A DNA stretch of 64,000 bases. It comes from Arcobacteraceae bacterium (GTDB lineage Bacteria; Campylobacterota; Campylobacteria; Campylobacterales; Arcobacteraceae). The DNA is taken from NCBI GenBank assembly GCA_028687375.1, contig JAQUAG010000001.1, positions 124,001-188,000 of the forward strand, given 5' to 3'. Under the pieces are notes generated by a model. It saw only the letters and a list, made by a program, of their open reading frames with translations, searched no databases and had not been told where the DNA came from. The translations under genes were made by a program, and so were the position numbers. Positions 2,930 to 21,627 of this stretch are shown here, piece after piece; position 1 is the first letter of the stretch, and every line of letters begins with the position of its first letter.

Positions 2930-2943
2930 GTATTCTTTTATAA

Positions 2944-4653: not shown

Positions 4654-5942
4654 CAGTTTTCAAACGCCTCTTTAAGGACTGTTGCCATTAGGTTATCAAC
4701 TTTGGTTTTGTTTTGGTTGATTTCAGCTTCAAGTTCATCACAAATCGCAAAAAATTTTTCTATTGTGGCTACTATCTCTTTTTGCTCTTCAAGGGGTGGA
4801 AGAGGAAATAAAGCATTTTTACCATCATCTGTACCTAATCTAGGCATCTTCATACCCTTCGTTAAACTATTTACATATTTAAGAAAATCTTTTCTTTTTA
4901 AAGCATACATTGCATAGTAACTATCAATATTTATATAAAATGTTAATGGCAAAATTTCTGTTGTGCAAACACCATTTTCATCAGCAACAATTACTTTATC
5001 TAAATAAGGTCGCAGTTTTGAATATAAAACATCAAACTGATGGAATACACTTTTTGTACTTGAACTATTTCTTTCATTTCCTCTAATTTTACAAAGCAAT
5101 TTTGAGGATTCTTTTTCAATATCTTCTAAATCTAAAATCCAAGTATCTTCTTTAATATCTTTTGGTTCAATCTTAGAACTAGAACCATAATTACATACTT
5201 CCCCCAATCTACACCATTCCCAACTTTGTGGAATATCAAATGGAATTTCATCTTCATTTATTGGTGCTAGTGGTTTTGAAGCTTTAAGTTTTTTCTCTTT
5301 TATAAGCTTCTCTTTTTCTATTTTTATCTGATCTAAAAGTTCTTTGGCTGTGCCGATATCAGGATTTTTAGCTCTCCATTTTGCTGTGAGTTTACCTTCA
5401 ATCGCTTCTTGCAAAATAGTTTGTTTTAGCTGTTTTAAAAGGAATTGTTGTGTATTGATTTCTTCTACTAATTCATTGTTTTCATTCACTAAGTTTTTAA
5501 ATAGCTCAACAATTTTTAGCTGTTCATCTATAGGTGGTAAAGGTATTTCAACTGTTTTGATTTTCGATATAGATAAAGATACATTTGCAGCTCCAGACAT
5601 TAATGGTACTAAAATCATATCTTTTAATCTTGATAGATATAAATGTAAAAATTGAGCATTTAAGATTGTTTCATCTTTTGGAATTAAGGCTACTAATATT
5701 GTCCCAAGAGCAAATTTTCCTTCTTGATAATGTACATAGTTTAAACTTGCATGACCGTGTCCAGTTGATGAAACTAATGGAATACAAACAGCTTTTGTAT
5801 CAAACTGGTAAGAATCATTTGTTTTTCTTTCTGCTGAAGTTGTTACTAAAGGATAATCCCCTGGTATAGCTTTTGCCAATCCTGTCTTACCTTTTTCAAA
5901 AAAACATAATTTATCAAGGTTTACTTTTTGCCAATTACTCAT
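4653..5942 (-). CDS. hsdS: Type I restriction-modification specificity subunit HsdS
   Basis: About 429 residues from the chosen ATG, which has GGAG 8 nt upstream; an in-frame ATG and TTG lie 12-15 nt earlier. It shows the classical two-repeat layout: target-recognition domain 1 (residues 1-150), a conserved helix ending in IPLPPIDEQLKIVELFKNL, target-recognition domain 2, then a second helix (FPLPPLEEQKEIVATIEKFF). HsdS gives DNA sequence specificity to the HsdM2S methylase and HsdR2M2S restriction complexes. A linker region (LLDQIKIEKEKLIKEKKLKA) is lysine-rich and coiled. The gene follows the AlbA_2 gene after an unusual 150-nt gap and overlaps the downstream 569-residue gene by 1 nt. The target sequence cannot be predicted. 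Confidence 0.95.
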   Translation of the reverse strand: MSNWQKVNLDKLCFFEKGKTGLAKAIPGDYPLVTTSAERKTNDSYQFDTKAVCIPLVSSTGHGHASLNYVHYQEGKFALGTILVALIPKDETILNAQFLHLYLSRLKDMILVPLMSGAANVSLSISKIKTVEIPLPPIDEQLKIVELFKNLVNENNELVEEINTQQFLLKQLKQTILQEAIEGKLTAKWRAKNPDIGTAKELLDQIKIEKEKLIKEKKLKASKPLAPINEDEIPFDIPQSWEWCRLGEVCNYGSSSKIEPKDIKEDTWILDLEDIEKESSKLLCKIRGNERNSSSTKSVFHQFDVLYSKLRPYLDKVIVADENGVCTTEILPLTFYINIDSYYAMYALKRKDFLKYVNSLTKGMKMPRLGTDDGKNALFPLPPLEEQKEIVATIEKFFAICDELEAEINQNKTKVDNLMATVLKEAFEN

Positions 5943-5994
5943 ACTTTGCTCCATCAATCATGCAATCCCGCAGGCACGAGGACAAACAACAGTC

Positions 5995-6092
5995 AAGCAA
6001 ATTTTGAGAAGGGAAAGCCCTATAATAAAGGGTTTCTCCAATATTTTTAAGTCTATTATAAGTGTTCAGTGAAGCAACGGTGAAGCAAATTT
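5995..6092 (-). promoter_or_regulatory. hsdS leader with direct repeats and hairpin
   Basis: The only long spacer in the hsd operon. The 11-mer AAGCAAATTTT (plus strand) occurs at 5995-6005 and 6082-6092, flanking an imperfect hairpin at 6006-6038 built from GAGAA/TTCTC and AAAGCCC/GGGTTT arms. This could be an attenuator, an mRNA processing site or an internal promoter that sets HsdS levels. Low certainty. Confidence 0.35.
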
Positions 6093-6095
6093 TCA

Positions 6096-7562
6096 TCATC
6101 TTGCCCAACTTGGTATATAAGTTCTTGCTTTTGTTCCTACATTTTCATCATAGATAGCTATTTTGTTCGCTTCAATTGCATCATTTATGATTTTTGAAAC
6201 CATTGAACGATTTTTGACATCAATGTTAAATCTCTCTCTAAGAGATGTGTTTGTCATATAGTCATGTTGGATATATCTTAAGCTCGCATGTAAATAACAA
6301 GCTCTTATCTTATCTGCTTTGTCCATATCTTTTAGCTCTTTATGTGCAAAAAGTATCGCTACTGTATGATCACCATTTGTTTCAAATATTGGGGCAGGAA
6401 GCTGATAAAGCTCTGTTTGGATTACTATCTTATCTACACCACTTCCTCTCTCTTCACAAATACCGATTCTTCTCATAAATGATGCTATTGCTTCATTTCT
6501 TGATTTTGGAGGAGAGTCCAAAAATCTTTCAGTATCTACAAGGGGAGTTCCTGGATTGGTTACTTCAAAACGGTTTGCAAAAATCTCTATCATCACCGAG
6601 CTGCCAGTAGCAAAGAAATCTTGATGGATAATAGCATTTGCAACGATTTCTCTTATTGAGAGTTCTGGATACATTGTTTTGTTTTCTCGAAATGCTTGTT
6701 TTATCACTTCGTTTGATGGAAGCATATTGTTTATGTATTCTATAAGTCCTTCAAATCCAACAGCATAACCTTTATTCCCAACTATCTCTTTTGTAGTTTG
6801 AAATTTTGTATTATCTTTGTATTGGATAACCCTTATGGCTTTTCTTTTGAGGTTATTGAACTTTGATAAATCCTTTGCAAAAAGTATTGCTCCCAAGTTT
6901 GTGATGGCATATTTTGCATTATCAAGTTTATTGACCATATTATCAGCTATAAGTGCTTCTAAGATAGCATTTCTATTTTCTGGTAAAGGTATATTTAATA
7001 GCTCAAAATATTTAGTATATTCAAGATATCCTAGTACTTCACTAGCGTCTATATTATCTACTGCTATTTGCTTCTCAAAAGGTACTTTGTCAAATATTCT
7101 CCAAAGTTCTCTCTCTTTTTCTGCTAACTCTTTAAGCTTTTTTTTGTGAGAGCCGAGTCTGATGTATTCTGTACCTGAAAATGTTACTGGGTGTCTATAT
7201 GCAGGTGCTATCTCAAGTAAAACGATACTTCTTTCATCTATCTCTACTTCGTAAAATTTAAAATCAATTTTTGGTTCTAGAAGTCGCAATATCCAGTTTT
7301 CTAGTGCTTCTCCACCTTTTTTTGCAGATGATGGAGTGAAAGTCGTACCTAAAATTTCATGAGTAGCATCATCTACACCCCAAATGATATAGCCATTTGT
7401 TTTACCATTGAGTGCAGCTGAGTTTGAAAGAGCACTTATATATTCACCTATCATTTGAGGATCTTCGTTATTGTGTTTGAACTCTATCCATTCAGTTTCA
7501 TTTGGAAGTTTTATAATCTCATTTACAAGAGATTTGATATAGTCTGTGCTTCTTACTATCAT
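6096..7562 (-). CDS. AlbA_2 (Schlafen-type) DNA-binding / HATPase_c_4 accessory protein of type I RM locus
   Basis: 488 residues. The N-terminus (ETEWIEFKHNNEDP, near residues 21-35, then a glycine-rich NGYIIWGVDD) matches the AlbA_2/Schlafen putative nucleic-acid-binding domain. The C-terminal half (REIVANAIIHQDFF, EIFANRFEVTNPG, EERGSGVDKI) matches the divergent GHKL-type ATPase region seen in COG2865 proteins, followed by a winged-helix-like tail. Such genes are often found between hsdM and hsdS; in Campylobacter jejuni comparable insertions are called mlo genes. The start codon overlaps the hsdM stop (ATGA). Probable role: regulator or accessory of restriction, not proven. Confidence 0.85.
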   Translation of the reverse strand: MIVRSTDYIKSLVNEIIKLPNETEWIEFKHNNEDPQMIGEYISALSNSAALNGKTNGYIIWGVDDATHEILGTTFTPSSAKKGGEALENWILRLLEPKIDFKFYEVEIDERSIVLLEIAPAYRHPVTFSGTEYIRLGSHKKKLKELAEKERELWRIFDKVPFEKQIAVDNIDASEVLGYLEYTKYFELLNIPLPENRNAILEALIADNMVNKLDNAKYAITNLGAILFAKDLSKFNNLKRKAIRVIQYKDNTKFQTTKEIVGNKGYAVGFEGLIEYINNMLPSNEVIKQAFRENKTMYPELSIREIVANAIIHQDFFATGSSVMIEIFANRFEVTNPGTPLVDTERFLDSPPKSRNEAIASFMRRIGICEERGSGVDKIVIQTELYQLPAPIFETNGDHTVAILFAHKELKDMDKADKIRACYLHASLRYIQHDYMTNTSLRERFNIDVKNRSMVSKIINDAIEANKIAIYDENVGTKARTYIPSWAR

Positions 7563-8992
7563 GAAAGCTCACTTTTTAATTTTTCTAAAAGTGTATTACT
7601 TTTTGCAAAAGAGTTTGACAACATCTCTAAAAGTTCTGATGATGTATGTGTTTGTTCTACTTCATTTTTATGAGGGTTTTTGATGTCAAGGTTGTAGCCA
7701 TTTGCTTTGATAGTTTCTATATCCACTTTCCAAGCTTGTTCATTTTCCTCACGGTTATTCCACCAAGCTTTAAGTGGCTCAAACTCTTCAAGCTTTATAG
7801 GTTTTGTTTTGCTATATGCTTTTTGACCCTCTGGTAATTTATGTTCATAGTACCAAATCTCTTTTGTTGGTATCCCTTTTGTAAAGAATAGAAGATTTGT
7901 TGCAACAGATGCATAAGGTTGAAATACTGAGTTTGGAAGTCGTACAATTGTATGAAGATTACAATCAGTTAGTAGTTTTTCTCTAATTCTTTGTTTTACT
8001 CCATCACCCGTAAGACTTCCATCTGGTAGAACTATTCCAGCTCTTCCACTATCTTTTAAAAATGCAATCATAAGTATCAAAAACAAATCTGCACTCTCTT
8101 TTGTACGGTAGTTCATAGGAAAATTCATCTCCATACCATCACTTACATTACCACCAAAAGGAGGATTTGCCAAAATACAATCAACTCTGTCTTTTGAAGT
8201 GATAGATGAGATTTCTCTTGAGAGTGCATCATCATAAACTATATTTGGCACTTCTATATCATGAAGTATGAGGTTTGTAAGTGCTAGCATATGAGGAAGT
8301 GGTTTTAACTCCATCCCTTTGATATTTTTTTGCATAGTGATTCTATCATCAGTGTTTTTGAGCTCACCACTTTTGATAATATGTTCAATAGTATTTACCA
8401 AAAATCCGCCCGTACCACATGCTGGGTCCATGGTAACTTCATGAAGTTTTGGATCTACCATTTCAGTGATAAATTGAGTAATAGCCCTTGGAGTATAAAA
8501 CTCTCCACTATTTCCAGCACTTTGAAGCTCTTTTAGGATAGTTTCGTAAATATCTCCAAATAGATGTCTATCTTCACTGCTGTTAAAATCAACTTCATTT
8601 ATTTTGTTGATAACTTGTCTGATGATAGTACCAGACTTCATGTAGTTGTTGTTACCTTCAAAAACTTCTTTTACTAAAAGTGCTCTTTTATTTGTCGCTG
8701 CTGTTGGTAAATTTTTTAGAGTAGGAAAAAATTTATTGTCTATAAAATCTAAAAGTGCATCCCCTGTCGTTCCCTCATTATTACTTGCCCAATTTCTCCA
8801 TTGTAGCTCACTAGGAATTGGTGAAATATAATCATCTTCAAGTAGTTCTATCTCGATATCTTTGTCATCAAAAATTTTAAGAAATATCATCCATCCAAGC
8901 TGTTCTATTCTTTGGGCATCACCGTTTAGCCCTTTATCACCTCTCATCAAGTTTTGGATTGATTTTATTATCGCACTTATATTATGATTCAT
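7559..8992 (-). CDS. hsdM: Type I restriction-modification DNA methyltransferase subunit HsdM
   Basis: 477 residues, usual for HsdM. It has an N-terminal helical HsdM domain (residues 5-140), the SAM-binding motif DPACGTGGF at 189-197, and the catalytic N6-adenine motif NPPF at 275-278. It methylates adenine in the sequence recognised by HsdS and also forms the core of the restriction complex. Only 3 nt separate it from hsdR upstream and it overlaps the AlbA_2 gene by 4 nt, so the set is cotranscribed. All catalytic motifs are intact. Confidence 0.97.
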   Translation of the reverse strand: MNHNISAIIKSIQNLMRGDKGLNGDAQRIEQLGWMIFLKIFDDKDIEIELLEDDYISPIPSELQWRNWASNNEGTTGDALLDFIDNKFFPTLKNLPTAATNKRALLVKEVFEGNNNYMKSGTIIRQVINKINEVDFNSSEDRHLFGDIYETILKELQSAGNSGEFYTPRAITQFITEMVDPKLHEVTMDPACGTGGFLVNTIEHIIKSGELKNTDDRITMQKNIKGMELKPLPHMLALTNLILHDIEVPNIVYDDALSREISSITSKDRVDCILANPPFGGNVSDGMEMNFPMNYRTKESADLFLILMIAFLKDSGRAGIVLPDGSLTGDGVKQRIREKLLTDCNLHTIVRLPNSVFQPYASVATNLLFFTKGIPTKEIWYYEHKLPEGQKAYSKTKPIKLEEFEPLKAWWNNREENEQAWKVDIETIKANGYNLDIKNPHKNEVEQTHTSSELLEMLSNSFAKSNTLLEKLKSELS

Positions 8993-8995
8993 TTA

Positions 8996-11383
8996 CTATG
9001 CTACCTCTTTATAAATTTCATGTTCTATTTCTTGTATTAGTTCCAAATATTTTGGTTTACCGCCAAACATATTTACGATCTCTAATGCGGAGCCAAATTC
9101 GTTAAACTCTGGAAGTTTAAGTACACTTATGGTTTCAATTGTTTCTATCCCCTCATCGGCATATTTTTCAAGAAGTTTTTCTATAACTGCTCTTGTTTTA
9201 CCTTCATATTTAGTAAAATAGTCTCTTTTCTTGATATTTTCAACTCTCTCTTTTCTTGTAAGCGGTGGTCTATCATAAGCCACATGGCAAATAAGATCAA
9301 ATATATCCATATCTTTGCCAATTTCATCTTTGAGTTCAGAAAATAAAATATCTTTTTCATAAAGCTCATCAATGATGGCTTGTTTTTTCTGGGCAGTTGT
9401 CCATTTATTTAAAAACTCATCAAGGCAGCTGAACTCTTCGTGAACTTTTTGCTTTGTATAGTCTTTGTAGCTTGTGGTTACAAGCTCCCCTTTGTCATTT
9501 CTTACTTGAATTCTCTCATTTAAAATTGTTACATCTACACCGTTTATATAGATTTTTTCTCTTGGTGTTTTTTCATCTTCATCAATCTCTCCACCATCTC
9601 TAATTGTAGGTGGTTCAAAAATAATCTCCTCACCACTTTCTTCGTCTATAATTGGTGTATCGTCATTTTCTTCTTCCTCTAGCTCAGGAAGTGGTTCATC
9701 TTCTTTTATCTCTTTGATTCGAACAGCTTCACCATCAAAATCAGGATCAGCAAATTTATCTGTAACATTTCTAAAATCCATAATTGTAAAAAATGTTTTA
9801 CCGTACTCTTCGTTTATTCTTGTACCTCGTCCGATGATTTGCTTAAACTCTGTCATAGAATTTATATTACTATCAAGTACTACGAGTTTACAAGTTTGGG
9901 CATCAACACCAGTAGTCATTAGTTTTGAAGTAGTGGCGATTACGGGGTATCTCTCTTGTGGGTTGATAAAATTATCAAGTTCTCTTTTACCTTCATCATT
10001 ATCGCCTGTTATTTGCATTACATATTTTGGATTTTGTGCCATTAAATCACTATTTAGATTTGCAATAGCACTTCTCATCCTGCTTGCATGGTCAATGTCG
10101 GTACAAAATACAATTGTTTTGTCAAATCTATCATGTTTGTTTAAAAACTCTGTGACTTTTGATGCAACAGCTTCTGTTCTCTCGTCGATAACTAGATTTT
10201 TATCAAAATCTTTTCTATTATAGATTCTCTTATCTACATCGTTGCCATCTTTGTCTTTTTTGCCAGCTTCTGGTTCATAGCCTTCTAAATCTACATTTAA
10301 ACCAACTCTAATAACTTTGTACGGAGCCAAAAATCCATCTTCTATACCTTCTTTGAGAGAATAGGTATAAACAGGCTCTCCAAAGTATTCGATATTTGAA
10401 ACCTCTTTTGTCTCTTTTGGAGTTGCAGTAAGTCCAATATGTGTAGCACTCCCAAAATAATCAAGTATCTCTCTCCAGGCACTATCTTCGGCTGCACTTC
10501 CTCTATGAGCCTCATCTATCACTATCAAATCAAAAAAATCAGGACTGAATTCTCTGTAAGCATCTTTATCTTCATCATAGTTCGTAAGTCCTTGATAAAG
10601 AGCCAAATATATTTCATACGATTTATCGATTTGCTTTTTTTTGATAACGGTCATTTTATCTTTGAAGTGTCTAAAATCTCCCCGTTTTGTTTGGTCAATA
10701 AGAGCATTTCTATCAGCTAAAAAGAGTATTCTCTTTTTTGCACCACTTTTCCAAAGTCTATGGATGATTTGAAATGCAGTGTAAGTCTTACCTGTACCCG
10801 TTGCCATCACAAGTAAAACTCTTTTTTGACCTTTTGCAATAGCTTCTACAGTTCTATTGATAGCTATTTGTTGGTAATATCTTGGATTTCTACTTGTCCC
10901 ATCAAAAAAGTAATCTTGAGAAACTACTTTTTCTTCATCTGGTGTTGAGATACCTTTATATTTTTTGTATCGTTGCCAAAGTTCTTCTGGAGTTGGAAAG
11001 TTCTCAAGTGATATTTCTCGCTCTATTGTACCATTGGAAAGTGTTTTATCATGTTCATAAAAACCATCACCATTGCTACTAAACACTACAGGAATATCTA
11101 AAATTCTTGCATATTCGATACTTTGTTGAATTCCATCTTGAAGTTTATGATTGTTGTCTTTTGCTTCGATAATAGCTACTGCAATATTTGGTTTATAGTA
11201 AAGAATATAATCAGCTCTTTTACCTTCACCTCGTTTGGTTAGGTTACCTTTTACATAGATTTTTCCATCCGTAAAAGAGACTTCTTCTCTTATCTGAGTT
11301 TCAATGTTCCAACCAGCATATGAGAGGGCTGGAGTGATATATTTGGTACAAATATCTCTTTCTGAGAGTTCTTTTTTTGACAT
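8996..11383 (-). CDS. hsdR: Type I restriction endonuclease motor subunit HsdR (EcoEI-like)
   Basis: 795 residues, the length of EcoEI-type R subunits. The N-terminal HSDR_N nuclease has Asp58 and ExK (Glu73, Lys75). The SF2 translocase follows: Walker A (ATGTGKT, 194-200), DEAH box (290-293), TATP (GLTATP) and motif VI (IIGRGTRINE). An acidic linker of about 40 residues (EEEENDD region, near 570-610) precedes the C-terminal domain that binds HsdM. It translocates and cleaves unmodified DNA with HsdM and HsdS. It starts 16 nt after the DUF262 gene. It appears intact and functional. Confidence 0.96.
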   Translation of the reverse strand: MSKKELSERDICTKYITPALSYAGWNIETQIREEVSFTDGKIYVKGNLTKRGEGKRADYILYYKPNIAVAIIEAKDNNHKLQDGIQQSIEYARILDIPVVFSSNGDGFYEHDKTLSNGTIEREISLENFPTPEELWQRYKKYKGISTPDEEKVVSQDYFFDGTSRNPRYYQQIAINRTVEAIAKGQKRVLLVMATGTGKTYTAFQIIHRLWKSGAKKRILFLADRNALIDQTKRGDFRHFKDKMTVIKKKQIDKSYEIYLALYQGLTNYDEDKDAYREFSPDFFDLIVIDEAHRGSAAEDSAWREILDYFGSATHIGLTATPKETKEVSNIEYFGEPVYTYSLKEGIEDGFLAPYKVIRVGLNVDLEGYEPEAGKKDKDGNDVDKRIYNRKDFDKNLVIDERTEAVASKVTEFLNKHDRFDKTIVFCTDIDHASRMRSAIANLNSDLMAQNPKYVMQITGDNDEGKRELDNFINPQERYPVIATTSKLMTTGVDAQTCKLVVLDSNINSMTEFKQIIGRGTRINEEYGKTFFTIMDFRNVTDKFADPDFDGEAVRIKEIKEDEPLPELEEEENDDTPIIDEESGEEIIFEPPTIRDGGEIDEDEKTPREKIYINGVDVTILNERIQVRNDKGELVTTSYKDYTKQKVHEEFSCLDEFLNKWTTAQKKQAIIDELYEKDILFSELKDEIGKDMDIFDLICHVAYDRPPLTRKERVENIKKRDYFTKYEGKTRAVIEKLLEKYADEGIETIETISVLKLPEFNEFGSALEIVNMFGGKPKYLELIQEIEHEIYKEVA

Positions 11384-11399
11384 TTAAATCACCTCCAAC

Positions 11400-13487
11400 T
11401 TACTCAAATTGTTTTTCAAAAGCTTGTCTTACTAAGCCTATGATATATGGAATTTCATCTATAGAGTTTAATATTACTTCAGTATCCCCATTGCCCCAAG
11501 TTCCTACATTTGATACATCTCTTCCAAGTTTTTTTGGATCTTCTAGTTCATTTAGTGCGATGTTTACATAAAGTTTTAAACTATTTGCTTGCGGAACTAT
11601 ATCTACAAAATTTGTTTCAGCTTTATAAGCTATATAGAGTTTTAAAAATTCCTCAGTTACATTTGAGTCTAAAGACAATACCTCTTTTCTAAATTCTTCA
11701 AAAAGCTTTTTATTTTGAGTTTTTAAAAGGTTTGGATGATCATCAATAGTGTAATTGCTATTTGAAGCTTTAGGTGCTTTATAAGTCTCTAAAATTGATG
11801 TTTCAAGTTTTGGACTAACCCATACATTGGCTGCTTGATTTGATAAAATACTAGCTCTACTTTTTATAGCATCTTCATTCCAAATAAGATTTGAATCTCT
11901 CAAATACTCATTTAGCTTGAGAGGACTTTTAGCAAAACCACCCTCCATATCTCTTTTTTCTTCAAAAGGTTTATCGCTATATTCAGAGTTATATCCTGTA
12001 AGAGTTAAGTTTCCTAATGTATGAAGCCATTGAGCTTGAATATCTTGCCAGTTTTCTCCTAAAGTATTTTTCCACTCTTGTGATAGGTTTTCATTTTGAG
12101 GCATAATATGTTCAATCGTATAATCATTGACATTAACTCTCTCTTTTCTACCAAAATTCTCTAATCTTCTAAGCCAATAACTTCTATTTCTGAAGTTATA
12201 AAGATCTTTTGATGATAAATGTATTTTAAATTCATCATCTGTTGGAAACTTCTTATAAGATGTTAAAAGCATAAATGTAGCTTGAATACTCTCTAAATAT
12301 CTATCTTTTTTGATTGATTTTGTAAAATTTGCAAATGTTTTATTGAGTGAATTGGTAGGAATTGCACAAATTGCTCTTCTAAATACATAACTTTCTATTA
12401 ATCTAATAGCTTTTTCAAAATCATCTTTAGATAAATGATTGTTTTCATAATCATCATAAAGCTCTAATAATAATGGATATGCAACATCGACTTTTAATTC
12501 TTTTAAATCTTTGAAAGCATAAGATAACTCTTTATCTTCTTCTTGTCCTAATGCCATTTTACAAAAATATTGAGAATAAGCTCTGATATCTGATACCAAT
12601 GATTCTATAGATAGATTTTCTTCTCTATGATATTTTTTAAATGCTTCATAAATACTATCTATTTTCGGAATTTCTTTTGTTTTTACAGTGAGATAATGCC
12701 TCATAAAAGCATCAAAATATGTCTGATATGCTTCTTGTCCAAAATCAAGCTCCATCGGTCGCCAATACTCTTCGTAGAGTCGTGATTGAAGGTCATGTTC
12801 TAATCCCATCAGAATGTAATTTCTGATTAAATCTGCTTGAGTTAGCTCTTTACCTGTTGAGTTCATGCTTTCAAAAATTAATTGAGGATTATCATATTGT
12901 CTATCAAGTGATATATCTACAATTAGTAGTTTAGCTATACCTTTACAAATAGTTTCAAGTTCATCTATATTTTCAGCCAGTTTCTTTTTAAAAAACTCAT
13001 AATTTACTTTTACTCTAAGAGAATAATCTTTTGGGAAATTTACTTTGCTTTTATCAATAAGGGCTATTAAAGTGTCTTTGTCTGTTTGAGATAAGATAAG
13101 TTTATATTTTTTGTTATCTTTTTTTCTAGGATCCATAAGGTAAAAATCTTTTAATTGTTCTTTTGAAAAACCATCTATTATTTCTTGCTCATCGTCTAAT
13201 AAATCGGATAGTGCAGTTAAAAGCAGTGTAACCGTTGTAAGCCTTTGTTGACCATCTATAATTAAAAGTGGCGATTGTGCTGTTACAGAGTATTGCCCAT
13301 CCTGGACATAAACAACAGAACCAATAAAGTGAGCCCCTATTTGATTATTTTTTCCTGCTCTTAATATATCTTTCCATAATTGTAAACATTCATTTTCAGT
13401 CCAGCTATAAGTTCTTTGATAAATTGGAATGACGAATTGTGAAGACTTTGATATAAATTCTAGTAAATTTGATTGAATGGCTGTCAT
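11400..13487 (-). CDS. DUF262/DUF1524 (GmrSD-like) nuclease with C-terminal DUF5655-like domain
   Basis: 695 residues. The N-terminal DUF262 domain shows PIYQRTYSW (21-29) and the signature DGQQR (78-82), a ParB/Srx-like NTP-binding motif. The DUF1524 HNH-type nuclease motif EHIMPQ lies near residue 460 and is followed by LGNLTLTGYNSEYSDKPF. The final 110 residues (LFEEFRKEVLSLD... to the end) look like a DUF5655 domain. Relatives such as GmrSD and BrxU are modification-dependent restriction enzymes; RloF of Campylobacter type I loci is probably similar. GAGGAT lies before the ATG. Upstream of hsdR in one operon, it could attack modified phage DNA that HsdR cannot. Confidence 0.9.
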   Translation of the reverse strand: MTAIQSNLLEFISKSSQFVIPIYQRTYSWTENECLQLWKDILRAGKNNQIGAHFIGSVVYVQDGQYSVTAQSPLLIIDGQQRLTTVTLLLTALSDLLDDEQEIIDGFSKEQLKDFYLMDPRKKDNKKYKLILSQTDKDTLIALIDKSKVNFPKDYSLRVKVNYEFFKKKLAENIDELETICKGIAKLLIVDISLDRQYDNPQLIFESMNSTGKELTQADLIRNYILMGLEHDLQSRLYEEYWRPMELDFGQEAYQTYFDAFMRHYLTVKTKEIPKIDSIYEAFKKYHREENLSIESLVSDIRAYSQYFCKMALGQEEDKELSYAFKDLKELKVDVAYPLLLELYDDYENNHLSKDDFEKAIRLIESYVFRRAICAIPTNSLNKTFANFTKSIKKDRYLESIQATFMLLTSYKKFPTDDEFKIHLSSKDLYNFRNRSYWLRRLENFGRKERVNVNDYTIEHIMPQNENLSQEWKNTLGENWQDIQAQWLHTLGNLTLTGYNSEYSDKPFEEKRDMEGGFAKSPLKLNEYLRDSNLIWNEDAIKSRASILSNQAANVWVSPKLETSILETYKAPKASNSNYTIDDHPNLLKTQNKKLFEEFRKEVLSLDSNVTEEFLKLYIAYKAETNFVDIVPQANSLKLYVNIALNELEDPKKLGRDVSNVGTWGNGDTEVILNSIDEIPYIIGLVRQAFEKQFE

Positions 13488-13881: not shown

Positions 13882-14085
13882 TCAACCAATTCGCACTCCA
13901 AAATCCTCTGGCTTGATATGAAAGTATGATGCTATTTTTTGATACATTACTTCATTTACTTCACTTAAAATCCCTTCACTTTGCTCATCTATGATTTTCT
14001 CTTTGATGTCATAGGCGAATAGCAATTTATTTTCTTCATCTAGTTTGACAGCCGTTAAATACTCTTTAATGATAAGTGGTTCCAT
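13882..14085 (-). CDS. Small hypothetical protein downstream of recombinase
   Basis: 67 residues, acidic, no signal peptide. AAAGGAA lies about 10 nt before the ATG. It follows the tyrosine recombinase gene by 29 nt and precedes a terminator-like hairpin, so it is probably cotranscribed with the recombinase. The C-terminus (YHIKPEDFG-like, FHIKPEDFGVRIG) has no assignment. Function unknown. Confidence 0.6.
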   Translation of the reverse strand: MEPLIIKEYLTAVKLDEENKLLFAYDIKEKIIDEQSEGILSEVNEVMYQKIASYFHIKPEDFGVRIG

Positions 14086-14114: not shown

Positions 14115-15041
14115 TTAGTGTCCAAGATAATGCTCAGTGATACTTGCCCTATAGTGCTTCATCTCCCAACTAACCCCTTGTAAGGCTTGTTCATAAGTGT
14201 AGCCGTGATTTTGATACTCCCTTACACGATTTTGTGCAAAGGTCCATCTAAATCCATGTGAGCCATGATGAGGGATATTTAACTTTTGGCATGTGGTTTT
14301 GATATCATCAATATACTCTTGGTAAGAGATTTTAAAATATGAAGTATCGTTTTGCAAAAAGAAGTTTTGCAAGGTTTCATAGGTTTTTGTTGAGATAAAC
14401 ACATCGCCAACTTTTCCACCTTTTTCTTTGGTTTCAATCACTCCGACACTTTTGTTGCTAATCTCATCAATTTTTATAGCTTTTAGTTGTTCCTTTTTTA
14501 TAAGTGCCACTCCCTCACTTCTAGCACCACCTTCAAGCTGTATGGTTGCAGCTAATTTGTGTTTTGGATTGGAGAGATTTTCTATTATTAGATGTGGATT
14601 ATCATACACACGGTTATGATAGTTATTTGCTACAAGTTTTAAATCTCTAGCATTGTTTAAAATCTCTTGTCTTATTTTAAAATCATAGATAATTTGAAAT
14701 TGGTATTTCTCTTTTGAGTAGCGATTAAGGGCAATTTCTAGTTTACCAAGAGCAGATGTGATTTTTTCTAAATACTGTTCTGAGGGGTAATATTCTATCT
14801 TATACTCAATATAGCTTTTGATATGCTCATCAGTGATTAGCTCACAGTTTTTGAGTTTAAAATGCTCTTTGAGGTAGTTAAAAAAGTTATTCCAAACATT
14901 TCTATAACTCTCCATCGTTTTAAAAGATGATACACATCCAAAATGCTCATGATTTGGATTGATTCTATCAGATTTTTTTGCACCTTCAAAGAATATGAGC
15001 TTTGTAAGCACTGCTGTTTGATAATATACACTTCCTCTCAT
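14115..15041 (-). CDS. Tyrosine recombinase / phage integrase family protein
   Basis: 308 residues. The catalytic set is complete: Arg174 (GARSEG), Lys near 207-210 (EKGGK), His262-x-x-Arg265 (HGFR), His296 and the nucleophile Tyr305 nine residues later, three residues from the C-terminus. The N-terminal 110 residues resemble a SAM-like core-binding domain. It differs clearly from the second integrase at 20.1-21.2 kb. It stands between the restriction operon and small element genes, so it could mobilise the defence cargo or act as a resolvase. A 550-bp upstream non-coding region would hold its promoter. Recombinase identity is secure; its target is unknown. Confidence 0.85.
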   Translation of the reverse strand: MRGSVYYQTAVLTKLIFFEGAKKSDRINPNHEHFGCVSSFKTMESYRNVWNNFFNYLKEHFKLKNCELITDEHIKSYIEYKIEYYPSEQYLEKITSALGKLEIALNRYSKEKYQFQIIYDFKIRQEILNNARDLKLVANNYHNRVYDNPHLIIENLSNPKHKLAATIQLEGGARSEGVALIKKEQLKAIKIDEISNKSVGVIETKEKGGKVGDVFISTKTYETLQNFFLQNDTSYFKISYQEYIDDIKTTCQKLNIPHHGSHGFRWTFAQNRVREYQNHGYTYEQALQGVSWEMKHYRASITEHYLGH

Positions 15042-15547: not shown

Positions 15548-15579
15548 TTACAAAAGAGTTGACAGGAACTCTTTTGTAA
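15548..15579. repeat. Perfect 13-bp inverted repeat
   Basis: TTACAAAAGAGTT, 6-nt spacer GACAGG, then AACTCTTTTGTAA. It lies just beyond the stop codon of the 112-residue gene (minus strand). No T-run follows on either strand, so a plain rho-independent terminator is doubtful. It could be a protein-binding palindrome, a recombination site or an mRNA-stabilising hairpin. Confidence 0.7.
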
Positions 15580-15592
15580 GATGGTGGAAAGT

Positions 15593-15931
15593 TTATGATT
15601 TTTCATCCCATTTGATTGTATTGCTGATATTTTTTTCCATAGCTGCATCAAAAATTATTTCCGCAAACTCTTTATAAAGCTTTTTAATACGCTTTGGTGC
15701 TTTCTCTTTTTGAAATGCTTTTTTTACTTCACCTTGTATCATAGCTTTAACCACTGGTAATGGATAAAATGCTCTTAAACAACACATTGCACCATAGAAT
15801 ATTGTTTTAGAAGATGACTTTGGATTGCTATTTGCAAAATAAATTATCACATACTCTTTTTCATTTTTTGTGAATTCCTCACCAGTTTTCTCTTTGAACA
15901 TATTTTTAAATTTATCGAATAAAAACGCCAT
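15593..15931 (-). CDS. Hypothetical protein of mobile element
   Basis: 112 residues, basic, no signal peptide. The central part (FYGAMCCLRAFYPLPVVKAM) is hydrophobic and may be a buried helix pair; the C-terminus is helical. It starts immediately after the stop of the membrane coiled-coil gene with no gap, so the pair is cotranscribed with the HTH gene upstream. No family recognised. Confidence 0.65.
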   Translation of the reverse strand: MAFLFDKFKNMFKEKTGEEFTKNEKEYVIIYFANSNPKSSSKTIFYGAMCCLRAFYPLPVVKAMIQGEVKKAFQKEKAPKRIKKLYKEFAEIIFDAAMEKNISNTIKWDEKS

Positions 15932-16339
15932 TTATTGCTCCTTTTGTTTATTGTGTTTATTGTGTCGTTTGACAATATTTTTTAGTTTTGTAATCTCATC
16001 TTCCAAAGATTGTCTCACATAATGAGTTGACTTTATCTCTGTATGAAATTTTGAGAGGCTGTTGTCTATAAGTTTGAAACTATCTTGAATATCTTTTTGC
16101 TCCTTTGCATTTTCATTTGCAATTTTTAAAAGATATTTTTTATACTCACCAAATTGCTCTTCAATCTCATCAACATTTTGAGCTAGTTGGGTTTGAAACT
16201 CTGATGAATAGTTCATAAGAAGCTTTTGAATACCAAGTGCAAATCTATCTTGTAAAAAGTAAAATATTCCAGCTCCAGCAATCACTCCACTAAAAAAGAC
16301 AACCACCTGCATCATCATAAAAGTTGTTTGGTTATACAT
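15932..16339 (-). CDS. Membrane-anchored coiled-coil protein
   Basis: About 135 residues from the ATG at 16339, chosen because AAGGA lies 9 nt upstream; an ATG 9 nt earlier overlaps the upstream gene further. One N-terminal membrane segment (VVVFFSGVIAGAGIFYFL) is followed by a charged helical region (residues 40-130) with heptad-like spacing. It overlaps the end of the HTH gene by a few nucleotides. Topology suggests an inner-membrane anchor with a cytoplasmic or periplasmic coiled coil. Function unknown. Confidence 0.65.
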   Translation of the reverse strand: MYNQTTFMMMQVVVFFSGVIAGAGIFYFLQDRFALGIQKLLMNYSSEFQTQLAQNVDEIEEQFGEYKKYLLKIANENAKEQKDIQDSFKLIDNSLSKFHTEIKSTHYVRQSLEDEITKLKNIVKRHNKHNKQKEQ

Positions 16340-16853
16340 TTTTCGCATCCTTTTTTATGATGTACTCGTTTATGTATTGAGATAGATAGGTATGAGAGAT
16401 AGTTTTTCTATATTTACTTTGCAAGTGTTGTTTTATATCTCTTAGACTATACCCATCATTATGCAGTGCCAAAATAACTGAATGAATCGATAAAAGCATT
16501 TGAAGCTTCTGCTTTGGTTTTTCTTTTTTGAGTTTTATTCGCTCTAATTTGGCGATACCTCCAAGTTCATTTAGAGTTTGGCTTTTATTTTTTGATTTTA
16601 AAAGCTGCTCTTTGTCGTAAAAGTGCTTGATAGCAAGTAAATATGAAGCCAGAGATAAAAGCTTTTTATCAATTCCCTCATTTTTTAGTTTAAAAAACTG
16701 ATTTTTTTGCTCATCAAATATCAGTATCTGAAATTCGATGTTTTGTTTATTGAACCAGTTTATAAGTGTTTTTCGCTGCTCTTTGGAGAGCTTTGTGTGA
16801 AACTCTAAACTTGAAAGAGTACTACTGTCAACAATGTTGTTTTTTTGTTCCAT
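16332..16853 (-). CDS. HTH-type protein, probable element regulator
   Basis: 173 residues from the ATG at 16853, which has GAGGTGAAC directly upstream; the longer reading frame starts inside the regulatory palindrome and is unlikely. The C-terminus (VILALHNDGYSLRDIKQHL, then ISHTYLSQYINEYI) looks like a helix-turn-helix of the kind found in plasmid mobilisation and replication regulators. It is divergent from a 59-residue plus-strand gene with a similar HTH pattern, with a 15-bp-arm palindrome between them. Likely a DNA-binding protein; exact role unknown. Confidence 0.65.
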   Translation of the reverse strand: MEQKNNIVDSSTLSSLEFHTKLSKEQRKTLINWFNKQNIEFQILIFDEQKNQFFKLKNEGIDKKLLSLASYLLAIKHFYDKEQLLKSKNKSQTLNELGGIAKLERIKLKKEKPKQKLQMLLSIHSVILALHNDGYSLRDIKQHLQSKYRKTISHTYLSQYINEYIIKKDAKNV

Positions 16854-16882: not shown

Positions 16883-16922
16883 TACATTCATATTTTTTTA
16901 GATTTGTAAAAATATGAATGTA
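16883..16922. promoter_or_regulatory. 15-bp-arm palindromic operator between divergent genes
   Basis: TACATTCATATTTTT, a 10-nt spacer, then AAAAATATGAATGTA, a perfect inverted repeat between the start codons of two divergent small DNA-binding genes. The exact right-hand 15-mer recurs at 19702-19716, before the excisionase-like gene. This fits an operator used by a regulator of the element. Confidence 0.75.
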
Positions 16923-16949
16923 GATGTAGATTTTTAAAAGGAGCAACAA

Positions 16950-17129
16950 ATGGCAGCAAAAAGTAGAATGGAAAAATATAGATTACAAATCGTAGATTTG
17001 ATATATAAAGGTGTTTCAGTTAGATCAACTTGGAGAATAATAAATGCAGACCTTCCAGAAGAAGGTAAAATCAGCTATAACGCATTTTTACATTTCGTAA
17101 ATAGAAATGTAAAAGCTACTACATTATGA
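16950..17129 (+). CDS. 59-residue small HTH-like protein
   Basis: Begins with ATG preceded by AAAAGGAGC at ideal spacing and encodes 59 residues starting MAAKSRMEKYRLQIVDL. The pattern I-x2-LIYKGVSVRSTWRII resembles the C-terminal HTH of the divergent 173-residue protein (LHNDGYSLRDIKQHL). Its 3' end overlaps the end of the repressor gene tail-to-tail by 6 nt. Probably a DNA-binding regulator or accessory factor of the mobile element. Confidence 0.7.
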   Translation: MAAKSRMEKYRLQIVDLIYKGVSVRSTWRIINADLPEEGKISYNAFLHFVNRNVKATTL

Positions 17130-17834
17130 AAAGTATTTTTCTACTAATTCAATTGTCAGCTTATCAATTTTATAAAGCTGGCTTTTGATAAATTTTTTTG
17201 TTTCAGGCAAAGTCATAATCATTTCACTCATTGAGATGGTATCTAAATCATCTTTTGCCCAATCGATAAGTGCATGTAAATCTTTGTCTTTAATCCACAC
17301 ACCATATTTTAGAGTATTTAATTTAGAAAACTCATATTGTGCTAAAAGCTCATGAAATTTGACATCTAAATCTTTTGTACCTGCTTGTAGATTCGTTTTT
17401 TCTAAATGCAACAAAAAAGAGTAGAGTAAAACTAACATTCTCTCCCCATCGCCGCTTACTACATTTGAAAGTTTCTCAAAAAAAGTTTGACCTTTGATTC
17501 TTTGAATTTTTGTTTTTAGTTTTATCATAATAGTTTGACTATCGATAAAATTTTCTAAAATAGTTGCTAACTCATCTTCTTTTTGATTTTCAATAGCCAA
17601 AGTTTGAGCTCTAAAGCAGTTCGAGCTATACCCATAAACAAGCCTATCCATAGATACATTAGCATCTATATTAGTAAGAACTTTTTCGATCAAAGTACCT
17701 AAAGAATTTCTCTTTTTTAGCATAGAGAGTGCATTTTTTGTCATCTGTAGTTTTTCAGCAAGTTCTGCTTCATTTTTTAAATTTAGTTCCTCTACAAGAT
17801 ATTTTACAGCTAATTCTGTATTAATTTCATGCAT
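17124..17834 (-). CDS. CI-like phage repressor HTH protein
   Basis: About 236 residues from the ATG at 17834, preferred because AAGAAGG lies about 8 nt upstream; a GTG 51 nt earlier is possible. The N-terminus (VKYLVEELNLKNEAELAEKL, then QMTKNALSMLKKRNSLGTLI) matches the CI-type repressor helix-turn-helix. The rest is helical, with no visible S24 protease motif. It is divergent from the plus-strand replication genes across a 126-bp region containing a TTCAC/GTGAA palindrome. Inferred role: master repressor of the element's replication and excision genes. Confidence 0.75.
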   Translation of the reverse strand: MHEINTELAVKYLVEELNLKNEAELAEKLQMTKNALSMLKKRNSLGTLIEKVLTNIDANVSMDRLVYGYSSNCFRAQTLAIENQKEDELATILENFIDSQTIMIKLKTKIQRIKGQTFFEKLSNVVSGDGERMLVLLYSFLLHLEKTNLQAGTKDLDVKFHELLAQYEFSKLNTLKYGVWIKDKDLHALIDWAKDDLDTISMSEMIMTLPETKKFIKSQLYKIDKLTIELVEKYFS

Positions 17835-17880
17835 TTTAAGTGCCTTCTTTAAAGTTAATTTAAAATTATATAGTGTATTA

Positions 17881-17896
17881 TTCACGAATTAGTGAA
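17881..17896. promoter_or_regulatory. Candidate repressor operator
   Basis: TTCACGAATTAGTGAA, arms TTCAC/GTGAA around a 6-bp spacer, in the divergent promoter region between the CI-like repressor and the plus-strand gene at 17961. A second half-site-like GTTCAC lies near 17930. Position is what a CI-type repressor operator would need. Confidence 0.55.
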
Positions 17897-17960
17897 CTAA
17901 TTATATTTTGATTAACAATTATACTATTCGTTCACAAAAAAATAGTTGAAAGGATAAAAA

Positions 17961-18596
17961 ATGCAACTTGTTGAAATTTTAAGCCATAGCAATAAAATCA
18001 AAACTGTTGATGATTTGTTAAATCATTTTGATTTAGTTGTTGAACTTGCAAGAGATGATATTTACAAAATTGCTAAATCAAAACGACTTTTATTTGGTGA
18101 TTTTGATTTTGCATACGCTGATGCAGTTGAAATGCTAAAAAGTCAGCTTCAAAAATCCCACCTAAAAGGAGTTAGTAGATTTTTACAGTGTGAAAATATA
18201 GCTAATGCCGTGAGTTGGCTAATAGAGAGACTACTTAACAATATGAGAAACATAACCACCAATCAAAAGTATAAACTCTACTGTGCCCCTAGCTTTGGAC
18301 AACTTCATGAAAATATCAAATCAAATGATGAACTTGAAGCGGTGCTTGAGCTTATGGAACTTGAAAAATTTGATAGAGATACCATAAAAAAAGGACTTCA
18401 AACAATTTGGAAAAACTCAATGCTTGAGGAAGATTTGGACTATCTTGATATGGAATATCTTTGTAAAAAGTTTGGATTTGAAGTATCACAGATTGTGGGA
18501 ACTGAAGCAATTAATTTGCAAAAGTATAAAAAAGAACAAACTCAAAGTGGACAAGTTCAACTAATGATGGTATTTGATGATGAATATGCCAGTTGA
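17961..18596 (+). CDS. Hypothetical protein, first gene of element replication unit
   Basis: 211 residues, acidic and helical, no membrane segment. GAAAGG lies about 8 nt before the ATG. It is the first gene after the operator region and is followed by the replisome-organiser-like gene, so it is probably an early replication or control gene. No family recognised. Confidence 0.65.
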   Translation: MQLVEILSHSNKIKTVDDLLNHFDLVVELARDDIYKIAKSKRLLFGDFDFAYADAVEMLKSQLQKSHLKGVSRFLQCENIANAVSWLIERLLNNMRNITTNQKYKLYCAPSFGQLHENIKSNDELEAVLELMELEKFDRDTIKKGLQTIWKNSMLEEDLDYLDMEYLCKKFGFEVSQIVGTEAINLQKYKKEQTQSGQVQLMMVFDDEYAS

Positions 18597-18723
18597 TTTT
18601 AAAGGCTTAAAAAGAGGGCTTGAGGCGTCGCCAAACATTCTCAAGCCAAGCTATCCAGAGTGGATAAGTTTGAATTATACACAAATTTATCTTTTTTCAA
18701 ATGAGGTGATGTATGAGCGATAA
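18577..18723 (+). CDS. Possible small overlapping ORF (48 residues)
   Basis: Fills the space between two element genes: it starts inside the 3' end of the 211-residue gene (ATGATG near 18577, or ATG at 18586) and ends inside the first codons of the replisome-organiser gene. The translation includes NILKPSYPEWISLNY. Overlap at both ends is typical of translational coupling, but the ribosome site is weak. Confidence 0.4.
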   Translation: MMNMPVDFKGLKRGLEASPNILKPSYPEWISLNYTQIYLFSNEVMYER

Positions 18724-19696
18724 TAAACATTACTACTATATCAAATTAAAAGCTGATTATTTTGATAGTGATGAAATGATTGTTCTTGAAAGTATGCCAG
18801 ATGGGTATAAATACTCAAATATTTTGCTCAAATTTATCCTACGAAGTATCAAAAATGATGGGAAGTTAATGTTCAATAAAACAATCCCTTTTAACTCAAA
18901 TATGCTAGCTAATGTAACAAGGCATAGTGTAGGGGATATTGAAAAAGCAGTAGATATATTTCAAAAATTAAATCTAATCGAAATACTACAAAATGGTGCA
19001 ATTTACATCAATGATATTCAAAACTATATTGGAAAATCTTCAACGGAAGCTGATAGAAAAAGAGCCTATAGACTAAGAATTAATGAAGATAAAAAACTCT
19101 TGGGACAAATGTCCGAAGAATGTCCAGACAAAAATCCACCAGAGCTAGAGCTAGAAATAAAGCTAGAGAAAGAAAAAGAGCTAAAGCTAAAAGCTACAGA
19201 GCAAAATGATATGAAAAGCTTTTTGAGCTTTAAAAGTTTTTGTGTTGAAAAATATAAAGGGCAGGTGCTTACAAATTGTTGTCCAACACTACTTGTAGGG
19301 AATGAGCTGAGAATTAATGATAATGGCTATCTTGAAAGTTATTACAATGGAAATAAAATAGATATCAATCCAAATAGAGCAAAAGAATTGTGGAAAATTT
19401 TATATGAGAACCAAGATGTGATAGGTGTAGTAAAAAACGATTATATTGAAAAGTATGTAGGTAGATATATAAAAATTGAAATTCAAAGCAAAATGACAAA
19501 TAAGCTTGAGACATTTTATTATGAAATTATCGGCTATAACATAGAAGATGAACTATATCGCTTGATTTTAAAAGATGTGCAAACATCTACAAAAGCAAAT
19601 GCAAATAAGCTTTATACACTAGAACAAATGGCAAAGCTTCCATTTGTAGATGTAAAGGAAGTAGAAAATGAAATTTATAAATCAGATAATCGTTAA
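18713..19696 (+). CDS. Phage replisome organiser-like replication protein
   Basis: 327 residues. The first 120 residues (YYYIKLKADYFDSDEMIVL, LLKFILRSIKNDGKL, NLIEILQNGAIYINDIQNYI, ADRKRAYRLR) match the N-terminal domain of phage replisome organisers, a winged-helix that binds the origin. A Glu/Lys/Leu-rich linker (residues 138-165) leads to a C-terminal part I cannot assign. AGGTGATGT precedes the ATG. It argues for a phage-like, self-replicating integrative element. Confidence 0.75.
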   Translation: MSDNKHYYYIKLKADYFDSDEMIVLESMPDGYKYSNILLKFILRSIKNDGKLMFNKTIPFNSNMLANVTRHSVGDIEKAVDIFQKLNLIEILQNGAIYINDIQNYIGKSSTEADRKRAYRLRINEDKKLLGQMSEECPDKNPPELELEIKLEKEKELKLKATEQNDMKSFLSFKSFCVEKYKGQVLTNCCPTLLVGNELRINDNGYLESYYNGNKIDINPNRAKELWKILYENQDVIGVVKNDYIEKYVGRYIKIEIQSKMTNKLETFYYEIIGYNIEDELYRLILKDVQTSTKANANKLYTLEQMAKLPFVDVKEVENEIYKSDNR

Positions 19697-19701
19697 AAAT
19701 A

Positions 19702-19716
19702 AAAAATATGAATGTA
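19702..19716. promoter_or_regulatory. Copy of operator half-site upstream of excisionase-like gene
   Basis: AAAAATATGAATGTA, identical over 15 bp to the right arm of the palindrome at 16883-16922. It lies about 20 bp before the excisionase-like start codon, in the gap after the replication gene. This links control of that gene to the small-regulator region 2.8 kb away. Confidence 0.65.
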
Positions 19717-19734: not shown

Positions 19735-20079
19735 ATGTTTGAATCACTTGAAAATGTTTTAATGCAAATTATGCAGTCGTTGCATCGTCAAGAGCAAATG
19801 ATGCAGCTTGTAATTACACACTTTAAAAATAAAAATGATGTTGCAAAATTTCTTGGTGTGTCGGTTGGTACAATTAACAACTACATCAAAGATGGAAGAT
19901 TTGAGCTTGGTAAACACTATTTTATCAATGAAAAAAACAATATAGAGTTTATCCCATCTGGAATAGTGGACTTCAAAGATAAATCAACAAAACAAAATAG
20001 AGTTGTAGAGGTTAAAACTCCAGAAAGACACTTACATCCTACTGCTAGAAAGTTTTTAGGAGGACAAAAAGTTGGCTAA
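19735..20079 (+). CDS. Excisionase-like / HTH protein preceding integrase
   Basis: 114 residues with a strong ribosome site (AGGAGG). An N-terminal helix rich in Met and Gln (residues 1-30) precedes a helix-turn-helix (NDVAKFLGVSVGTINNYIKD) and a wing-like part. It overlaps the integrase gene by 8 nt, the usual arrangement for a recombination directionality factor that sets the direction of integrase. Carries a regulatory half-site upstream. Role by context. Confidence 0.65.
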   Translation: MFESLENVLMQIMQSLHRQEQMMQLVITHFKNKNDVAKFLGVSVGTINNYIKDGRFELGKHYFINEKNNIEFIPSGIVDFKDKSTKQNRVVEVKTPERHLHPTARKFLGGQKVG

Positions 20080-21229
20080 AAATATCAGATTTATCTATAC
20101 AGATATTAAATTTACCATAAAAGAGAGATACAATAAATGGTGGCTTGATTTTTATTTGCCAGATGGGAAAAGGATTAGAAGATCTACTGAACTATCTTCA
20201 AATCAGCAAAATTTGACAATCATAAAACGACAAATCATTCCTGATATTATCATTGGACTTGGAAAAGAGCCAGTAGAAGAGATTCAAGAGTCAAAAGAGT
20301 GGATACTTGATGATTTTGCAGATGAGTATTTTGAACTTCATAGAACTCAAATAAGAGAGCACACAAACGAAAAGAACAAACAGCACTATAAAAATCATGT
20401 GTCGCCATATTTTGGAAAAAGATTGATTTCAAGTTTGACTCCTATAGAGCTTGAGAAATGGCAAAATAGGTTGCTTTTAAAGTATAGGCATTTAACAGTA
20501 CAAAAATATCGTTCAGTCTTATATTCAATACTTCAAAAAGCTTATAACAACGATATTATTTTAAAAAATCCACTTGAAAAGGTCAATGCTCCTAAAATGC
20601 AGATTAACAATCAGCAAAAAGAGGTATTGCCTTTTACTCACAAAGAGTTAGCCTTGATACTTGAAAATAGTTCAGGATATATAAAAAACTTTATTAGCTT
20701 TATGGCTGCAACTGGTATGCGACCAGGGGAGATTGTCGCTTTAAAATGGAGTGATGTAGATTTTGAAAGAAAAATGATCTCTATTGAGAGAACAAGAGTA
20801 CGAAGTAAAAAGGGTGAAAAACCAAAAGATGGACTTACTAAAACGATGTCATCAAATCGAAAAATAGATTTGTTGCCAATCGCAGAACAAGCACTGCTTG
20901 AGCAAATGAAACTTACAGTTGATGCAACATATATTTTTTTAAATCAATCAAATGAACCCTTCTATGGTCATGACATTATAGGAAAAAGATTTAGGGAGAT
21001 TATAAAACAAAGCGGTGTGAAAGAGAGACCATTGTATAATTTAAGACATACTTTTGCTTCACAGATGATAAGCCGAGGGGCAGATATTGTTTGGGTGTCT
21101 AATATGCTTGGACATAAAAATGTTTCAATTACCCTCTCAACATATACAAAATTTATCAAAGAAGATGATGAAGTAAGAATAAGAAATATTGAAAAAATGG
21201 GCACGATTATGGGCACTTTCTCTGAGTGA
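20072..21229 (+). CDS. int: Tyrosine recombinase integrase of the mobile element
   Basis: 385 residues. An N-terminal arm-binding domain (residues 1-65), a SAM-like core-binding domain (about 85-175) and a catalytic domain with Arg in TGMRPGEI, the box LYNLRHTFAS (Tyr in place of the usual first His), His in LGHKNVSIT and the nucleophile Tyr in STYTKF. It overlaps the excisionase-like gene and ends exactly at the 5' edge of the chromosomal ybgC gene, with no intervening space. That position marks the right attachment junction of the element. Confidence 0.93.
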   Translation: MAKNIRFIYTDIKFTIKERYNKWWLDFYLPDGKRIRRSTELSSNQQNLTIIKRQIIPDIIIGLGKEPVEEIQESKEWILDDFADEYFELHRTQIREHTNEKNKQHYKNHVSPYFGKRLISSLTPIELEKWQNRLLLKYRHLTVQKYRSVLYSILQKAYNNDIILKNPLEKVNAPKMQINNQQKEVLPFTHKELALILENSSGYIKNFISFMAATGMRPGEIVALKWSDVDFERKMISIERTRVRSKKGEKPKDGLTKTMSSNRKIDLLPIAEQALLEQMKLTVDATYIFLNQSNEPFYGHDIIGKRFREIIKQSGVKERPLYNLRHTFASQMISRGADIVWVSNMLGHKNVSITLSTYTKFIKEDDEVRIRNIEKMGTIMGTFSE

Positions 21230-21264: not shown

Positions 21265-21627
21265 GTGCAGATACGAGTTTATTACGAAGATACAGATTGT
21301 GGTGGAATAGTTTATCACAGTAATTATCTGAACTTTTGTGAGAGAGCGAGAAGTGAATTATTTTTTCAAAAAGGTTTAAGCCCACATGATAAAAATAATT
21401 TTTTTGTTGTAAAACATATGGAGTGTGATTTTATAGCTTCTGCAAAATTTGGAGATATATTAACTATAAATACACAAATACTTGAGATAAAAAAAGCTTC
21501 ATTAAAAATCGAACAACTTATTACAAGAAAAGAAGAAAATATATTTAAAACTATTGTTACTTTGGTATTTTTAAAAGATGGGAAACCATCACGGATTCCA
21601 GAGGAAAAACTAGCTATTTTTAGCTAA
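21265..21627 (+). CDS. ybgC: YbgC/4-hydroxybenzoyl-CoA-type thioesterase
   Basis: 120 residues from a GTG start at 21265; the hot-dog thioesterase motif IRVYYEDTDCGGIVYHSNYL begins at residue 3, so little or nothing is missing at the N-terminus. GGGG lies 8 nt upstream. A longer frame from 21226 would overlap the integrase stop and add residues unlike the family. Family role: hydrolysis of short-chain or lipid acyl-CoA thioesters, in many bacteria linked to Tol-Pal. The mobile element ends immediately upstream, so the original promoter and start may have been replaced. Confidence 0.88.
   Translation: MQIRVYYEDTDCGGIVYHSNYLNFCERARSELFFQKGLSPHDKNNFFVVKHMECDFIASAKFGDILTINTQILEIKKASLKIEQLITRKEENIFKTIVTLVFLKDGKPSRIPEEKLAIFS

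Follow-up and report, generated by a model that had tools for sequence, protein, structure and literature searches.

In the 64-kb window (the whole stretch of DNA that was analysed), an integrated element carries a short site ahead of the genes of two small TraK-like proteins, p59 and p173, and ahead of an excisionase-like gene, xis. Related elements in other bacteria have retained the site at the same positions, and on this ground it is very probably, as judged from sequence, a switch that couples the exit of the element from the chromosome to its mobilisation functions. That a single control circuit would join the small DNA-binding genes and excision is well supported by the same comparison. 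As the best explanation, to which we give a probability of roughly 0.55, we propose that a small regulon has AAAWTATGAATRTA as its operator, which is probably read by the TraK-like p59 and/or p173 acting as a repressor. The site, its positions, its conservation, its co-occurrence with p59, and the borders of the element are observed, and the reader, the sign of control, and mobilisation are inferred. The features are collected in Table 1.

Table 1. Positions of the sites, genes, and borders of the element (positions in the window)
Feature	Position	Strand	Remarks
Site 1, left arm of inverted repeat, sense for the 173-aa gene	16883-16897	-	exact AAAAATATGAATGTA
Site 2, right arm, sense for the 59-aa gene	16908-16922	+	exact AAAAATATGAATGTA
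Site 3, copy ahead of xis	19702-19716	+	exact AAAAATATGAATGTA
Fourth site, ahead of the 72-aa ORF p72	~5 kb left of the window		slightly different copy, TCAAAATATGAATATA; far left end of the element
Cargo: Olokun (OloB, OloA), type I RM (S, M, R), Orf5/HEC-06-like gene	1277..13487	-	
67-aa partner ORF	13882..14085	-	kept beside the 308-aa gene
308-aa protein	14115..15041	-	tyrosine-recombinase fold; candidate MpsA/MobK-type relaxase
112-aa ORF	15593..15931	-	downstream of p173; conserved in L014/L089
138-aa ORF	15932..16348	-	downstream of p173; conserved in L014/L015/L089
p173, 173 aa	16332..16853	-	C-terminal TraK-like PF17273 match below cut-off
p59, 59 aa	16950..17129	+	TraK-like single domain; three-helix AlphaFold model, pLDDT 83
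CI-like repressor	17124..17885	-	PF07022
p211, 211 aa	17961..18596	+	conserved in most related elements
Replisome organiser	18713..19696	+	PF09681
xis, excisionase-like HTH protein	19735..20079	+	
int, tyrosine integrase	20072..21229	+	adjoins ybgC
Right end of the element, at the start of ybgC	21266..21300	+	

Copies of the site in the window

A preliminary description of this DNA had reported an identical 15-mer at distant places of the element, as the 15-bp arms of a perfect palindrome between two divergent small genes and again ahead of the excisionase-like gene. Both places were confirmed: AAAAATATGAATGTA forms the two perfect arms of an inverted repeat with a spacer of 10 nt, between the 59-aa and the 173-aa ORFs, and recurs exactly ahead of xis. 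Its TATGAAT core lies ~39 nt ahead of the ATG of the 173-aa gene (16853), 37 nt ahead of that of p59 (16950), and 28 nt ahead of that of xis, with site 3 itself ending 18 nt short of the ATG. The regulon also reaches further than the pair first described, as it includes a fourth gene, p72, at the other end of the element.

Perfect inverted repeats whose arms measure 15 bp or more and whose loop is 3-20 nt are limited in the 64 kb to sites 1 and 2 plus one terminator-like hairpin (~57688), and none appeared in six Markov simulations of the window. The hairpin (57687-57721, perfect 15-bp arms AAAAAGGCTAGGTAA and TTACCTAGCCTTTTT) is probably a transcription terminator.

The possibility that the 15-mer is simply common in the genome failed: the whole-genome count gave three exact copies, all in the window, and zero elsewhere in the 2,537,712 bp. 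The sequence is AT-rich and its three copies lie within 2.8 kb, as would be expected if they were due to chance or to a recent duplication of an AT-rich word; yet only 0.13-0.16 exact copies are expected per genome from the composition of the window, and the same positions are kept in diverged relatives. This comparative evidence contradicts such an origin, which we consider close to untenable.

Conservation of the site in related elements

When other elements were searched, the site was found to be kept ahead of xis, p59, and the left gene (p173 in the window) in diverged relatives. The right-hand module of the element is kept in L012-L015, L046, and L052, with int adjoining ybgC where the locus extends that far; L012-L015 and L046 are Sulfurimonas-type, including one scaffold labelled Rhodobacterales. 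All these loci have an inverted repeat with a TATGAAT core between the position of p59 and the left side, and in the related elements (Sulfurimonas-type and of other Campylobacterota) the site AAAWTATGAATRTA stands ahead of the same genes in sense orientation. In 15-kb loci of the element, nearly all matches to the pattern WWWTATGAATR are the arms or the xis site, and L013, L014, L015, L046, and L052 have exactly three matches each, one per arm and one ahead of xis. Relative to its gene, TATGAAT lies without exception in the sense direction, at 34-41 nt from the start codon of p59, ~39-42 nt from that of the left gene (best cases), 28-44 nt from that of xis, and 42-43 nt from that of p72. The p72 copy is present in four genomes (that of the window, G434, G332, and G404), and G332 has a second p72-like ORF without the site (in L146).

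The palindrome is retained while its letters change: in L014, L015, and L046 the arms are TATTCATAATTTT and AAATTATGAATA, different from those of the window and L013 and palindromic still. Co-evolution of the arm sequence with p59 or p173 was rejected, because identical or near-identical proteins have different arms (p173 is 100% identical in the window and in L046, and p59 is near-identical in L013 and L014). Most elements have a core-to-core spacing of 22-25 nt, against 15 nt in L049 and 17 nt in L050, and L047 has a single half site ahead of p59, with no second arm in the ~300 bp before the contig end. On the basis of this variable spacing and of the one-armed L047, the palindrome is probably not one unit, and would rather consist of two back-to-back, gene-proximal copies of a per-gene element, while a strict dyad operator or a hairpin as the unit was rejected. 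Where p173 and p59 are divergent, their two copies would make up the palindrome.

In the alignment of 39 sites, TATGAAT and an A-tract are the main conserved stretch, and the 100% conservation of TATGAAT is partly by construction, because the 39 rows were picked by this word. Outside AAAWTATGAATRTA, the ribosome-site positions, and the opposite arm, there is little conservation, and no conserved -35 was found in this alignment. TATGAAT occurs upstream of 9/207 gene starts, eight of them within loci of the element family and the ninth ahead of a relaxase gene. A host promoter word was rejected, as upstream TATGAAT was absent at the non-element gene starts examined, except for that relaxase gene, and no -35 is conserved. 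The reading of ATGAAT as the start of a leader peptide was also rejected: lengths and frames vary and, judging from the alignment, no ribosome site stands ahead of it.

Across 399 genomes, the palindrome pattern was found in 14 genomes versus 10 by the control, a count that is weak on its own, so that real cases were told from chance by their context. L016 was rejected as a relative, owing to a spurious 8-residue match to a phage-like contig. Some copies also have a broken p59. In L015 (8001-8180) p59 is frameshifted, and the Rhodobacterales label of this scaffold with a Sulfurimonas-type element indicates mis-binning or transfer. L018/L056 (genome G021; around 7450-7530 of L056) is a decayed remnant in which the inverted repeat and the first part of p59 persist, the p59 frame being broken. 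The Malaciobacter mytili plasmid pAMYT (L060/L007) has an XRE repressor with broken pieces of p59 and p211, a remnant of a related element.

Candidate readers of the site

Excisionase relatives were gathered from 399 genomes of the order, and the upstream DNA was taken for 20 loci. The xis sites were scored by inspection; in L137 and L138 TATGAAT is a probable coding-sequence start, and both were scored as lacking the site. Of the elements with a close p59 relative (or the L052 variant), 8/8 have the site ahead of xis, as do two of the 19 scored elements without one (none in 17/19). Both of these p59-less bearers are decayed remnants, L123 having a stop in xis and L141 being truncated. Fisher's exact test for the xis site versus p59 gave 2e-5 when the remnants were included and 9e-7 when they were left out. 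On the xis tree the site requires four changes and there are only two supported independent pairs, which makes a tree-aware test powerless; by number of elements the association is strong, and in terms of independent events it is weak, the supported pairs being few.

The excisionase-like protein could itself read the site, repressing or activating its own and other genes, like RdfS of the Mesorhizobium ICE. The site does stand ahead of xis, and recombination directionality factors can control their own and transfer genes (PMC11963761); against this, many excisionase relatives lack the site, palindromes are present in L049 and L085, where no related xis was detected, and the site-bearing xis proteins belong to two or more deep clades that also contain site-less ones. 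We regard this as very improbable.

The operator reading proposes that p59, the p173 operon divergent from it, xis, and p72 are each controlled by one sense copy just upstream. A TraK-like protein (p59, and/or p173, the latter with a related C-terminal domain) would bind the site over the -10/+1 region and repress its own operon and xis jointly, and the relief of repression would switch on mobilisation and excision together. The placement over -10/+1 follows from the distance to the ATG, if transcription starts lie ~20-30 nt upstream of it, as they do for most AcaCD promoters of SGI1 (PMC5058578). This place favours a repressor operator or a -10-like element over a -35 activator site.

The likeness of both proteins to TraK is distant. 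Against PF17273 (DUF5338), p59 scored 14.7 bits, p173 19.8, and the p59 of L048 22.0, all below the Pfam cut-off of 25.9; this is the family of TraK, since TraK of R751 matches it at 100.5 bits. The p59 profile aligned with R751 TraK over 43 columns (pair E 5e-4, only 32% probability). These sub-cut-off matches suggest a distant relationship of p59 and p173 to IncP TraK. The AlphaFold model of p59 gave no significant structural match in the fold search, and no PDB match of use. Relatives of p59 adjoin a MOBF relaxase in L048 and a coupling protein in L049, and the beginning of p59 hardly varies, at either the DNA or the protein level (partly judged by eye).

As for TraK at oriT, two genes diverge from a short stretch between them that contains an inverted repeat, and p173 and p59 have the same orientation as traJ and traK in R751. 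Unlike there, p59 is half as long as TraK, the left gene, whose role in transfer is putative, belongs to a family other than the NikA-like TraJ, and the repeat recurs ahead of xis and p72. These likenesses raise the alternative that the palindrome is primarily an oriT or relaxosome site bound by TraK-like proteins, as IncP TraK binds oriT between traJ and traK, and a similar palindrome lies upstream of a relaxase gene in L088. However, the copies ahead of xis and p72 require a role in gene control, the arm spacing varies, only ~96 bp separate the two start codons, and a better oriT candidate lies in the sequence conserved ahead of the 308-aa gene. Such a primary role is improbable.

Against the operator reading, the arm variants fail to follow the p59 or p173 sequence, the p59 association has few independent events behind it, and p59 lacks a significant structural match. 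Some loci speak against p59 as the reader: L085, L086, and L087 have palindromes without p59, L048 has p59 yet only a degenerate half site, and the L088 palindrome has neither p59 nor p173 relatives nearby. The site could instead be a promoter or activator element for another factor, such as the activator of a helper conjugative element, an alternative sigma factor, or p211. The sense orientation and near-constant distance to start codons agree with this, as do the same-core palindrome that two Malaciobacter genomes have ahead of a relaxase gene, with no p59 relatives nearby, the persistence of the site where other genes replace p59, and the precedent of AcaCD, which switches on xis and other SGI1 genes (PMC5058578). 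On the other hand, the -10/+1 place is too near the start codon (AcaCD sites lie 61-98 bp upstream; PMC5058578), a conserved -35 is missing, the site was not seen ahead of other genes of the loci, and its xis copy tracks p59. We consider a factor of this kind a serious but unlikely candidate.

The proposal of the preliminary description that one regulator links small-gene control to excision is supported as a shared regulon, given the site kept ahead of xis, p59, and the left gene and the xis copy that tracks p59; the palindrome, in turn, is probably not its unit, and the regulator itself is only inferred.

The element, its candidate relaxase, and known systems

From right to left, the element consists of the integrase and xis beside ybgC, the replisome organiser, p211, the CI-like repressor, p59, the inverted repeat, p173, two small ORFs, and the 308-aa gene. 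Part of the ybgC start is repeated, as ATGAAAATTCGTGTATATTACGAAAATAA, at ~118606 of the contig (G000:C40), ~5.4 kb left of the window; this partial copy marks the left end and gives an element of ~26.7 kb (118.6-145.27 kb of the contig). By PADLOC models, the cargo comprises Olokun, type I RM, an Orf5/HEC-06-like gene, a CBASS cyclase with a 2TM effector, and a DRT reverse transcriptase. In relatives the cargo differs, with BREX (PglZ, BrxL), Zorya, or CBASS genes instead. We take these elements to be a family from Campylobacterota, integrated at the start of ybgC, probably mobilizable, and with anti-phage genes as cargo. In the left part of the element (L091, 3758-5491 and 1450-2981), the DRT-type reverse transcriptase (UG36) and the CBASS cyclase with its 2TM effector lie beside the fourth site.

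The best Foldseek matches of the 308-aa protein were XerH, IntI4, lambda Int, and Cre, and its R174, H262, R265, and Y305 are invariant in 10 relatives. MobK of pIGRK is a relaxase with a tyrosine-recombinase fold, and MpsA of SGI1 has been proposed as one (PMC8152469, PMC6414798). On the basis of its fold and the candidate catalytic residues, the 308-aa protein is a candidate relaxase of the MpsA/MobK type: it shares the fold and the conserved R, H, R, and Y with the MpsA/MobK/TcpM relaxases, and differs from MobK in length and N-terminal domain. By analogy, since its fold matches that of MobK and MpsA, mobilisation of the element is plausible. Upstream of the gene, ~550 bp with no clear gene (15042-15592) are a candidate oriT, and AAAAAnGGAAACnG and GA.TGACT.AAC are retained upstream of its relatives.

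In its logic, the system seems closest to SGI1 with its AcaCD-dependent xis, and RdfS of the Mesorhizobium ICE is also comparable. As in the AcaCD regulon of IncC-mobilised SGI1, one control site stands ahead of xis and other genes, and excision would be tied to mobilisation. Also as in SGI1, xis lies beside int and there is a tyrosine-recombinase-like candidate relaxase; the integrase has an adjacent excisionase, insertion is at ybgC in the relatives checked, and the left end has the partial ybgC-start copy. Unlike in SGI1, the site is far nearer the start codon, and the proteins, the host phylum, and the insertion site are different; no AcaCD/FlhDC site or gene was found. RdfS of ICEMlSymR7A likewise couples excision and transfer-gene control via one DNA-binding protein, but without a clear motif, whereas here the motif is sharp and tracks another gene (p59).

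Elements that carry anti-phage genes must leave the chromosome and transfer in step. For SGI1 and a small number of ICEs this coupling is already understood in detail; the literature searched held no account of it, or of this element family, in Campylobacterota, and one may still exist. Because the site is short, sharp, and countable, the regulon, the reader, and the helper are directly testable, and more such elements can be found with it. We tentatively suggest, with less than even confidence, that these are an undescribed family of mobile defence islands of Campylobacterota, in which a dedicated operator and a 59-residue TraK-derived repressor would control mobilisation and excision, and which may be moved by a tyrosine-recombinase-type relaxase that has this switch in common with conjugative elements of the same hosts.

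In Malaciobacter, a short TATGAAT inverted repeat lies directly upstream of a MobA/VirD2-type relaxase gene (L088, 8717-8742; also in G082, in L077). In L088 the surroundings look like a conjugative element, as genes of the VirB11-like, coupling-protein, and MobC kinds are present.
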